Source: Roseiflexus sp. (GTDB lineage: Bacteria > Chloroflexota > Chloroflexia > Chloroflexales > Roseiflexaceae). From it: 33,606 bases of DNA. A program made the position numbers and the translations under genes. Where the stretch lies: contig JANWXL010000571.1 of assembly GCA_025055265.1 (NCBI GenBank), positions 1-33,606 of the forward strand, in the 5' to 3' direction. This document shows positions 14,427-26,452 of the stretch, piece by piece; the stretch's first letter is position 1, and each line of letters starts with the position of its first letter. The notes beneath the pieces were generated by a model. That model was not told the origin of the DNA and did not search any database. It saw only the letters and a list, made by a program, of their open reading frames with translations.

Positions 14427-15233
14427 GTGTGTTGGCAGCAACAGGTGTTGTTGTTGCGATTTGTTGCGGGGCTGTCGATTATCGAACTCGAGCCGATGCT
14501 GCGCGCCGCTGTATCGCTGCGCACACTGCCCGCGCTGCTGCCGCCCGATCTTGGCGCAATCGAGCGCTCCGTTCTGGCGCGCGCTGCTGAATTGCGCCTC
14601 GCTGCAGCGCCATCGCCGGCGGCGCCGTATCCGACAAACCTGCCCGTCGTTGCTGCACTCGTGGCGTTAGCGCTGCTGATTGGCACATTCCTGATTCTGA
14701 GCGCTCTGTTCGGCGGTACGCAGCAGCCTCCACAGTCGCCGCCGCGCCCGTCTGTCACTGCGCCCGCCGCTGCCACAGCGCCGATCCCGGCAGCGTCGCC
14801 GACACCATCTCCAGAGGCGTCGCCTGAGATGCCATCATCGCCGACGCCAACCAAGGGAGCGTCGCCGATACCGCAGCCGACGGCGACATCCGCCCTGGCG
14901 CTGCCGACGGTCACGTTCCAATCGGCGCCGATGCGCACACTGGAACCGCCGCCGACGCGAGTGCGCACGCCGGAACCGCCGCCGACGCGGGTGCGCACGC
15001 TGGAGTCGTCGCCGACGCGGGTGCGCACGCCGGAACCGCCGCCGACGCGGGTGCGCACGCCGGAGTCGTCGCCGACGCGGGTGCGCACGCCGGAGTCGTC
15101 GCCGACGCGGGTGCGCACGCCGGAACTGTCGCCCGCGCCCGACGTTTCGCCGACTGCTGTGCCGCCCGTCGTATCGCCTTCACCTGAAGATGATAACGAT
15201 CACGATGATGATGACGATGATGATAGTGATTGA
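14427..15233 (+). CDS. Putative membrane-anchored Pro/Thr-rich repeat protein with Asp-rich tail (start uncertain)
   Basis: TM segment LPVVAALVALALLIGTFLILSALFGG, then P/S/T-rich region, (V)RTPEPPPTR decapeptide repeats, C-terminus EDDNDHDDDDDDDSD. The only upstream start is GTG right after an in-frame TGA. Confidence 0.6.
   Translation: MCWQQQVLLLRFVAGLSIIELEPMLRAAVSLRTLPALLPPDLGAIERSVLARAAELRLAAAPSPAAPYPTNLPVVAALVALALLIGTFLILSALFGGTQQPPQSPPRPSVTAPAAATAPIPAASPTPSPEASPEMPSSPTPTKGASPIPQPTATSALALPTVTFQSAPMRTLEPPPTRVRTPEPPPTRVRTLESSPTRVRTPEPPPTRVRTPESSPTRVRTPESSPTRVRTPELSPAPDVSPTAVPPVVSPSPEDDNDHDDDDDDDSD
14931..15140. repeat. 30-bp in-frame tandem repeat, about 7 units
   Basis: Units start at 14931, 14961, 14991, 15021, 15051, 15081 and 15111 (last one degenerate); consensus GTGCGCACGCCGGARYCGYCGCCGACGCGG. 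Confidence 0.95.
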
Positions 15234-23325: not shown

Positions 23326-23347
23326 TGACGGGCGCTGATGCGCCCGG

Positions 23348-23383
23348 TTGTGCCGGGGCACGGCGCGCTGTGCCCCGGCACAA
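23348..23383. repeat. Perfect 14-bp inverted repeat (possible terminator or repeat-element stem)
   Basis: TTGTGCCGGGGCAC-GGCGCGCT-GTGCCCCGGCACAA. Confidence 0.9.
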
Positions 23384-23476
23384 GCGCAGCAATCTCCCCG
23401 CACCCTGGGAGATCGCTTCAGCCACGCTCTCCTCGCTGCAAGCGTCGCTTGCGTTCTTCGCAATGACGGCGGCTTG
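23384..23476. repeat. Interspersed-repeat-like segment, left flank of the glycine-zipper cassette
   Basis: CAATCTCCCCGCACCCTGGGAGATCGCTTC...CTTCGCAATGACGG; a related segment in opposite orientation lies at about 24403-24475. Confidence 0.5.
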
Positions 23477-23491: not shown

Positions 23492-24229
23492 ATGTCCAGC
23501 TTCACGTTGACCTTTCTACGAGAAATCGACTTCGCATGGCGAATGTGGAATGGAAATAAACCAGAGGAAGCAATTCAGGGTGCGATTCAAAGCGGCATCA
23601 GTGCAGGCGGCCGAACGCTGATCAGTGGTGTCATTTCTGCTCAGGTATTACGCACGCGCATCGCTGCCGCTGGCACGGTCGCATTGCGCAGCGGAGCGCG
23701 CAAAGTCGCCTCAACGAATATCGGAAGAAGCGCTATTCACCGCATTGCCTCGGCATCGCTCGGAAAACCCGTCTACGGAGCGGCAGCGGTCAATCACGTT
23801 GCGAAACTGTTTCGCACGAATGTTATCACGTCCACGATCAGTTTAGTCGCGTTGACGGCACCTGATGTATACCACGCCGCCATCAGGCGTGATATTTCGT
23901 GGTCTCAGTTCGCGAAAAACATGGCTGTCAATGGGGCGAGCATCGTTACTGGCACTGGGGGATGGTTCGCCGGAGCAGCGGCAGGAGCAGCGATCGGGAG
24001 CGCGGTTCCGGGCATTGTCACAGCAACAGGAGGGTTTGTTGGCGGAATATGTGGAGGAGTGCTGGGCGGCTTTGCCGGAACCAGTAGCGCAAGGCGGTCC
24101 AGGGTCACGATGCCGGATCCTGAACGGGTCCTGAACCATGTCACCCGCATCACTGAAGCGTGCACGATCCGGGATGATGGCATCGCTCAAGGAGTGGCGT
24201 CTCGATGTGAGGAGGACGAAGATGCTTGA
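23492..24229 (+). CDS. Uncharacterised glycine-zipper-rich membrane-active protein
   Basis: Start MSSFTLTFLREIDFAWRMWNGNKPEEAIQGAIQSGISAGGRTLISG; C-terminal half GTGGWFAGAAAGAAIGSAVPGIVTATGGFVGGICGGVLGGFAG. Confidence 0.75.
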   Translation: MSSFTLTFLREIDFAWRMWNGNKPEEAIQGAIQSGISAGGRTLISGVISAQVLRTRIAAAGTVALRSGARKVASTNIGRSAIHRIASASLGKPVYGAAAVNHVAKLFRTNVITSTISLVALTAPDVYHAAIRRDISWSQFAKNMAVNGASIVTGTGGWFAGAAAGAAIGSAVPGIVTATGGFVGGICGGVLGGFAGTSSARRSRVTMPDPERVLNHVTRITEACTIRDDGIAQGVASRCEEDEDA

Positions 24230-24380
24230 TGAGATCGCACGAAAACTGGCTTCTCTAGGAACAGTCGGTACGATGTTTGTTGTCGCAGCGTCGATTGCCA
24301 GCGGCATGGGTTTGACCGGCGCTGCAGTGATAACCACGGCTGATCTGAAATGGGCTATCAAGCGCCAGTTAGGTTGTTAG
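24222..24380 (+). CDS. 52-aa hydrophobic protein overlapping the end of the glycine-zipper gene
   Basis: MLDEIARKLASLGTVGTMFVVAASIASGMGLTGAAVITTADLKWAIKRQLGC; strong AGGAGGA RBS 12 nt upstream; overlaps the preceding stop by 8 nt. Confidence 0.65.
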   Translation: MLDEIARKLASLGTVGTMFVVAASIASGMGLTGAAVITTADLKWAIKRQLGC

Positions 24381-24402
24381 ATTCTGTCGGAAAATCAAGC
24401 GT

Positions 24403-24475
24403 CGCCGTCATTGCGAGTCCCGCCAGCGCCGAAGCAATCTTCTGTCGCGTCAGGCAGGTTGCTTCGCTGGCCTAG
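24403..24475. repeat. Interspersed-repeat-like segment, right flank, inverted relative to 23384-23476
   Basis: CGCCGTCATTGCGAGTCCCGCCAGCGCCGAAGCAATCTTC...GCAGGTTGCTTCGC. Confidence 0.5.
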
Positions 24476-24550
24476 AGGGCGCTGCAGGCTGATGAACAAT
24501 AAGAGTAGTTCGGTAGTGCCGGGACGCTGCGGGTTGAGACCCTGCTGAGG

Positions 24551-24720
24551 TCGTGCAAGCCCCGCAGGGGCTTCAATGTCCTGAGCAAGGGCTTTAGCCC
24601 GCAGCCTGAAGCGCACGCGACCGGGCAGCGCAGGTTTACCGGATTTAAATCTTCATTAGCCCTGGCTGAGATCGTGCAGGCTCTGCATGGGCTTCAATGT
24701 CCTGAGCAAGGGCTTATGGA
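24551..24720. repeat. Two diverged copies of RTCGTGCARGC..GCAKGGGCTTCAATGTCCTGAGCAAGGGCTT
   Basis: Copies at about 24551-24597 and 24671-24716. Confidence 0.8.
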
Positions 24721-24864
24721 GTTTGAGAGAATAATCCGGTATCGCCCAGTCTAGCCCGCGCAGGCGGGCTTCGCAACCGTAGCCCGCAGCTTTTGGAGTT
24801 TGAGAAAATAATCCGGTATCGCCCAGTCTAGCCCGCGCAGGCGGGCTTCGCAACTGTAGCCCGC
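24717..24864. repeat. 71-bp near-identical direct repeat, period 77 bp, with internal hairpin
   Basis: TGGAGTTTGAGARAATAATCCGGTATCGCCCAGTCTAGCCCGCGCAGGCGGGCTTCGCAACYGTAGCCCGC at 24717-24787 and 24794-24864; only two differences seen. Confidence 0.93.
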
Positions 24865-25101
24865 GACTTCAGGCGCCGGGCGGATGGGCGGATAGCGGAA
24901 TATTTATTCAAAAACCATCAGCCGCTCTCGATGTTCATCAACCGCCAGGCAGATCTACAAGTCTGATTTCCGACTCGCAACCACACCCTCCACCAGATTC
25001 CCTATTGCTTCCGGTTACGGAGTCGTGCTAAGATGAGAGGCGTGACTGAGACGCTGCGCAGCAGATTGTGGCAGGCGCACACCGCGGAGTGGTGGAGAAC
25101 T

Positions 25102-25566
25102 ATGGCGAACGTGAGTCACGACGCAGATCCAGTAGAACGCGTCGTTGAGTTGCATTTGCCCAGCCGGCTTGGCTACGAAAAAGTCGCAATGGATGCGGCT
25201 GCCTCGGTTGCGCGGCGGATGGGGTTCAGTGCGGATCGGGTCGATGCGCTGCGCACTGCTCTGGCTGAAGCGGTGACCAATGCCATCGAGCACGGGAATG
25301 CCCACAACGCAGATACGCGCGTTCTGGTGATCCTGACGGTGCGACCATCGGAGCTCGTCGTCAGCGTTGCCGACCAGGGTTTCAAGCCGATTGACAAGGC
25401 GCAGATCGCGCCCGCGCCCAGCATCGAAGATTCGTTTTCCCGCGCCGATAAAGGCGGTTGGGGCATCTGGCTGATACGCGAGCTGATGGACGAGGTGGAG
25501 TTCACCACGGCGCCAACCGGCGGCAATCAGGTGCGGATGGTCATTCATCTGGAGAAGCAGTCGTAA
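25102..25566 (+). CDS. RsbW-like anti-sigma regulatory factor (HATPase_c_2)
   Basis: MANVSHDADPVERVVELHLPSRLGYEKVAMDAAASVARRMGF...ALRTALAEAVTNAIEHGNAHNADTRV...VADQGFKP...KGGWGIWLIRELMDEVEF. Confidence 0.88.
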   Translation: MANVSHDADPVERVVELHLPSRLGYEKVAMDAAASVARRMGFSADRVDALRTALAEAVTNAIEHGNAHNADTRVLVILTVRPSELVVSVADQGFKPIDKAQIAPAPSIEDSFSRADKGGWGIWLIRELMDEVEFTTAPTGGNQVRMVIHLEKQS

Positions 25567-25569
25567 CGT

Positions 25570-26013
25570 ATGCACAAAGTATCTCCTCCCCTCTCGATCA
25601 AGCTGTCGATCCCCAGCGAATTTGGCTATGAACGGGTGGTTCGTGAGGCTGTGGCTTCATTTGCGCGGCGTGTTGGCGTTGCCAGCGAGCGCGTCGAGGA
25701 TTTGAAAACCGCCGTCAGTGAAGCATGTCTCAACGCGATCGAGCACGGGAATGCGCAGATGCCCGGGACGCGCGTTGATGTGAATTGTGTCTGGGAGAAC
25801 GATGTCCTGATGGTCAGAGTGCTCGACCATGGCTTAAGGCGGTATGCTGGCCACGTGGCACCCTGTATTGCCTGCAAGGTTCATGGCGAGGCGCCGCCGC
25901 GCGGCATGGGATTGTATCTGATCGCGCAGTTGGTCGATACGTGCGGTTTCGAGTCGTCGCCCGATGGTGGCAATGTTTTGTATATGTCGATGCACACTCG
26001 CGCGATGGCTTGA
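25570..26013 (+). CDS. Second RsbW-like anti-sigma regulatory factor (HATPase_c_2)
   Basis: 147 aa; LKTAVSEACLNAIEHGNAQMPGTRVDV, VLDHGLRRY, RGMGLYLIAQLVDTCGFESS; paralogous to 25102-25566. Confidence 0.88.
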   Translation: MHKVSPPLSIKLSIPSEFGYERVVREAVASFARRVGVASERVEDLKTAVSEACLNAIEHGNAQMPGTRVDVNCVWENDVLMVRVLDHGLRRYAGHVAPCIACKVHGEAPPRGMGLYLIAQLVDTCGFESSPDGGNVLYMSMHTRAMA

Positions 26014-26089
26014 TGAGCACACTTGAGCGCCGGGCGGAGGCGTTCCTGGAGACCGGCGGCGTTGCAGGATTGTGGTGAGGAGCACCGGT

Positions 26090-26452
26090 ATGCTGGACGA
26101 TGATCTAAGTGTGCATATCCGAGAGCGCGAAGGGGTGGCGATTATCGATCTGATTGGCGACGTGACGACGTTTGCCGAAGAAAAGATTACCGGCGCCTAC
26201 AATGAAGTCTCGCGCAGAGGCGCACGGAATATTCTGCTGAATTTTCGTCAGAACGACTATATCAAGAGTGCTGGCATCGCTATCCTGATCGGAGTCGTCA
26301 CCGAAGTCAACCGGCGGAATCAACGCCTGGCGGTTAGCGGTTTATCGCAACACTTCCAGAAGATCTTTCGCATGGTCGGCCTGGCGCAGTATATCGACAT
26401 TTATCAGGACGAAGACGAGGCCATTCGCGGGCTGACCGCCGCGATGACCTGA
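26090..26452 (+). CDS. STAS-domain anti-sigma factor antagonist (RsbV-like)
   Basis: MLDDDLSVHIREREGVAIIDLIGDVTTFAEEKITGAYNEVSRRGARNILLNFRQNDYIKSAGIAILIGVVTEVNRRNQRLAVSGLSQHFQKIFRMVGL. Confidence 0.9.
   Translation: MLDDDLSVHIREREGVAIIDLIGDVTTFAEEKITGAYNEVSRRGARNILLNFRQNDYIKSAGIAILIGVVTEVNRRNQRLAVSGLSQHFQKIFRMVGLAQYIDIYQDEDEAIRGLTAAMT

Follow-up and report, generated by a model that had tools for sequence, protein, structure and literature searches.

Passages on the yeeR gene of Escherichia coli place it between flu and irmA and describe the K-12 gene as truncated (PMC6480617) or class it as a pseudogene in strain NCM3722 (PMC8614746), and a proteomic study counts its product among the inner-membrane proteins (PMC8144685); the published yeeR passages that we found name no function for it. 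The full-length protein, which RefSeq names 'YeeR family protein', has 838 aa. Among 5,426 complete genomes of E. coli, 2,569 have a near match to it, and in 1,788 of these the match spans 80% or more of the 838-aa gene. Pfam holds no model for the core of the family. Two further entries invite comparison: a Lactococcus plasmid protein annotated as a 'glycine zipper family protein' (WP_021166212.1), and PDC-M09B, a phage defence candidate in PADLOC, which is a candidate label in a database and for which our literature search on PDC-M09 found no paper.

Comparison of the Roseiflexus locus with described systems

The window, as we call the whole 33,606-nucleotide stretch of Roseiflexus sp. DNA analysed here, corresponds to C262, one of 604 contigs in a draft genome that comes to 4.0 Mb and is 83% complete, and carries a 245-aa and an overlapping 52-aa open-reading frame (ORF). 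Searched alone, the 245-aa protein gave no matches in genome_contigs or viral_contigs, and the decisive approach was a search of genomes of the same genus rather than of family libraries: in two congeners, G004 and G005, the corresponding gene is intact, a single open frame of 487-492 aa. Its product shares 35-36% identity with the YeeR core over 283 residues (E ~1e-38), and also matches proteins from Klebsiella, a Selenomonas plasmid and a gut phage.

Like the intact Roseiflexus gene, E. coli YeeR has the invariant E, D and QxK set and the order nuclease-like domain, helices, zipper, but it differs in an N-terminal extension of ~400 aa, membrane-type at its start, which none of the Roseiflexus forms has, and in its position beside flu/agn43 and irmA (a cluster of prophage CP4-44 and its relatives), partners that the Roseiflexus forms lack. 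The two broken genes are also broken in opposite ways, as K-12 yeeR retains only its first 507 codons, an N-terminal 507 aa without the zipper, whereas the window copy lacks the N-terminal domain. The Lactococcus protein aligns to 91% of the intact Roseiflexus protein with 38% identity, yet has a long C-terminal extension, and its gene has a WYL regulator on one side and on the other a gene that weakly matches BnzA (Bunzi). PDC-M09B shows HMM matches to E. coli YeeR in the QTKY and zipper regions, weak ones that take in the full architecture, and a similar DG..Q.K motif, but it is a separate and more distant family, aligned by hhalign over 84 columns with a probability of 31%. On one contig of the viral collection (L145:1144-5990) a PDC-M09A/M09B-like pair, its putative members assigned from length and motif, lies directly upstream of an 840-aa YeeR gene; a protein at L102:4710-5924 was tried as a PDC-M09B protein and rejected.

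A predicted nuclease-like domain in intact relatives

The intact congener genes combine homology to the YeeR core with a domain that bears the invariant residues E46, D73, Q82 and K84. Each of the 50 rows in the alignment of relatives has E46, G71, D73, Q82, K84 and E112; E112VP was in the search pattern and is therefore partly preselected, while the other invariant residues were not. All 50 rows thus hold the active-site set of PD-(D/E)XK nucleases, E, D and (E/Q)xK, in the right order. AlphaFold models residues 40-165, mostly at pLDDT 74-98, in the order alpha-beta-beta-beta-alpha-beta, and residues 166-333 as helical with moderate confidence; its model of the zipper is unreliable. A Foldseek search with the full-length model gave helical chance matches only, so the N-terminal domain was folded separately, and its best matches were then mostly PD-(D/E)XK nucleases (named among them PspGI, Hjc, VRR_NUC, MspJI and I-Ssp6803I), each without significance (E ~0.2 or worse). 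Sequence searches gave no significant match in the PDB and no notable match in Pfam. We regard the predicted PD-(D/E)XK-like fold of the domain in the intact family as supported, not proven.

The ancestral gene, of which two congeners still have an intact form, encoded a YeeR-family protein of ~490 aa, whose N-terminal domain bears a PD-(D/E)XK-like active-site set (E46...D73...QTK82-84) and is followed by an extended helical, hydrophobic region and, at the C-terminus, a glycine zipper. Such an intact protein would most likely be a membrane-associated nuclease, with the zipper anchoring it or inserting into the membrane.

Two gene remnants in the window

The features of the locus, in window coordinates, are these:

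23345-23386, no strand: hairpin, where the 5' part of the YeeR-family gene would be expected
23382-23467, no strand: dispersed repeat, occupying the place of the gene's missing 5' part
23492-24229, plus strand: 245-aa ORF, part of a longer open frame in which TTG at 23348 is the earliest potential start
23492-23515, plus strand: 5' junction, the first 8 codons of the 245-aa ORF, at the edge of homology
23939-24090, plus strand: glycine-zipper coding region, residues ~150-200, with 10 GxxxG against 4.1 in shuffles (P ~0.0002)
24091-24092, plus strand: site where an internal deletion took out 258 nt (86 codons) in frame after the zipper, from DNA alignment to congeners
24222-24380, plus strand: 52-aa ORF

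A preliminary description, made from the letters of the window, had proposed a compact two-gene cassette of glycine-zipper proteins, a candidate toxin/immunity, defence or effector module. What it saw in the DNA was confirmed: the two ORFs, their 8-nt overlap, the ribosome-binding site GAGGAGGACGAAG (AGGAGG) ahead of the ATG of the 52-aa ORF, flanks rich in repeats (dispersed repeats also lie around 24400-24925) and an excess of GxxxG in the 245-aa protein, 12 against 3.5 expected from composition, a count that 0 of 5000 shuffles reach. The glycine zipper is thus genuine, membrane insertion is probable, and the description was also right that no housekeeping role is evident and that the family is uncharacterised. 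In the 52-aa protein no GxxxG was counted, and its residues 8-39 are hydrophobic. The compact cassette itself did not survive comparison with other genomes, as both ORFs are remnants of longer, unrelated genes; neither is a natural gene from end to end, which the sequence alone could not reveal. Elsewhere in the window, a dispersed repeat at 24659-24925 with a 77-nt tandem duplication (24712-24865) has several copies in its own genome and in congeners, and an ORF at 14427-15233 with tandem 'TRVRTPE(P/S)(P/S)P' repeats is open on both strands.

Residues ~9-199 of the 245-aa ORF match residues 188-378 of the intact congener protein, with 82% identity over the first 175 aligned, so that the helical region and the glycine zipper are homologous to those of the intact gene; residues 201-223 match its last 23, and residues 224-245 (22 residues) are read-through, the native stop TGA of G004 being TGC in the window. 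The window copy has lost the ribosome-binding site and start codon of the native gene (in G004, GGAGG and after it ATG) together with its initial ~187 codons; the missing 5' coding sequence, which specifies the nuclease-like domain, comes to ~570 nt, counted to the DFAW codon in G004. This conserved domain is absent from the ORF and, since a search of the assembly to which the window belongs gave no match to the N-terminal 187 aa of the intact protein, from the rest of that assembly as well. The 258-nt deletion takes out the conserved FIEDDA segment, including D389, which is invariant in 50 of 50 relatives. On these alignments the 245-aa ORF is best read as a remnant of a YeeR-family member and not as a complete one; with the start, the nuclease-like domain and the conserved C-terminal segment deleted, it therefore cannot do the ancestral job.

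The zipper part also matched models of tape-measure proteins, lysins, LeoB and PdsO, which would suit a housekeeping or structural membrane protein of the phage tail or OmpA-like zipper type, were the kinship to PHROG, LeoB and PdsO real. Those matches centre on the compositionally biased glycine-rich stretch, the conserved N-terminal domain matches none of the models and the distribution of the family is patchy, and we consider such a role highly improbable. The PHROG tail and lysin, LeoB, PdsO and TcdA/TcdB-pore matches were rejected as glycine-rich composition, weak or below cut-off.

The parent of the 52-aa ORF is a longer protein unrelated to the YeeR-family protein. In a sister genus (G006) a 211-aa protein matches it, through residues ~96-134 of its own, at 69% over residues 2-40 of the ORF, and the last ~12 residues of the ORF resemble the C-terminus of that protein, the stretch between being deleted. 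A frameshift in the middle of the ORF was considered and rejected, as the middle matches the G006 protein in frame. In the 51-aa version that G005 carries on contig C22 (L047:467-619), 13 residues remain at the start, with more of the C-terminal part; the G004 copy of the gene stops after 17 codons. As aligned, these versions, the 52-aa ORF and the 51-aa ORF of G005 among them, are different deletions of one ancestral gene. The intact 211-aa kin (L162:5068-5700, minus strand) belongs to a glycine-/alanine-rich hydrophobic family without a Pfam match. We found no relatives of the 52-aa ORF beside YeeR-family genes elsewhere.

Could the truncated form nonetheless be a functional derivative, a membrane-active glycine-zipper peptide with a small partner that serves as a toxin/immunity pair or pore former? 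The frame is open over 245 codons, itself a caveat for decay, the large deletion is in frame, omega on the window branch is below 1, and the second ORF has its good ribosome-binding site and overlap. The ATG at 23492, however, has no ribosome-binding site, the protein has lost its FIEDDA segment and ends in read-through sequence, congeners with an intact first gene hold a differently broken second gene, and neither the truncated form nor the pair was seen in any other genome. The preliminary description had itself counted lack of conservation of the pair, together with lack of a phenotype, against such a module, and the pair is present in no examined locus outside the genus. We consider a functional derivative quite unlikely.

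The locus in congeners

Synteny shows that in one of the two congeners with an intact gene it stands at the locus of the remnant. The neighbours at the window locus, identified by eye, are a carboxyltransferase gene and a HATPase gene; in G005 (contig C92) the intact gene follows the same acyl-CoA carboxyltransferase gene as the remnant does, in G001, where it is frameshifted, the gene has the carboxyltransferase gene before it and the HATPase gene after it, the arrangement of the window, and in G004 it lies ahead of the same HATPase gene. G002 and G003 keep both flanking genes and have no match to the YeeR-family gene. In the window, 25033-26452 holds two adjoining HATPase (RsbW-like) ORFs and then a STAS-like ORF, functions assigned by eye, and the first of the two HATPase ORFs stays beside the carboxyltransferase gene across the genus. 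The G005 draft holds two different YeeR-family alleles, on contigs C22 (L047) and C92 (L046), which probably reflects a strain mixture.

These comparisons also bear on whether the break is an artefact, with the gene intact in the actual genome and the contig mis-joined at repeats. The draft has its 604 contigs and the 5' junction lies near the dispersed repeat, where a chimeric join is possible. Of the several separate lesions (the 5' loss, the 258-nt deletion, the lost stop and the deletion in the second ORF), only one is near a repeat, though, the assembly has no unplaced N-terminal fragment, and congeners show independent lesions and absences; an assembly artefact is very unlikely as the explanation of the locus.

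GC at third codon positions is 0.57 in the remnant and 0.50 in the intact relative, against 0.73-0.75 in the neighbours, a contrast that suggests horizontal gain of the gene. Branch omegas, from a three-taxon subtraction of pairwise dN/dS on 215 shared codons, are ~0.36 for the window, 0.14 for G004 and 0.35 for G005, and private changes (synonymous:nonsynonymous, small numbers) are 6:7, 7:0 and 3:3. As the window value is ~0.36 and not 1, the decay is recent or some constraint is left; the values fit recent relaxation without proving it. Taken with the homology, the synteny and the deletions, the locus is very probably an inactivated and recently eroding one, in which a horizontally gained gene for a predicted membrane-associated nuclease of the YeeR family has been broken and a second gene survives in part as the 52-aa ORF.

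Distribution and neighbourhoods of the YeeR family

Searches of GTDB genomes gave 139 matching stretches, in Desulfosoma, Betaproteobacteria, Pseudomonas, Paenibacillus, many Clostridia, Bacteroidales and others. Judged by eye, the N-terminal parts vary among members, from none to zinc-ribbon-like, signal-peptide-like or membrane segments; the YeeR-family proteins of L099, L119, L120 and L127 have an N-terminal signal-peptide-like stretch, a hint that some members may act outside the cytoplasm. Gene neighbours, on which PADLOC was run for the distant relatives, vary as well and include WYL regulators, Sel1 repeats, TerB and, in one contig, the PDC-M09 pair; no single partner gene is conserved beside the family, and 34 of 86 loci are without a close same-strand neighbour. 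The proposed link to defence holds in part, in that defence-type genes are associated to some extent with the intact relatives, but not as a compact toxin/immunity cassette. The variable N-terminal parts may be exchangeable input domains, and the proteins may be used in conflict, probably with mobile elements.

Discussion

As a relic of a YeeR-family operon the locus is ordinary; its lesson is that truncation can give a gene the look of a compact toxin cassette. For the family as a whole we offer, tentatively, the possibility that YeeR proteins are undescribed membrane-tethered PD-(D/E)XK nuclease effectors, spread horizontally over many phyla, which with exchangeable N-terminal sensors may act in defence or inter-element conflict, and that decayed copies such as those in the window and in K-12 yeeR may be footprints of loss where the system is costly. 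The lead worth keeping is the nuclease prediction for a family that occurs in many phyla and in about half of the complete genomes of E. coli, for which the conserved E/D/QxK set makes a specific, testable biochemical prediction.
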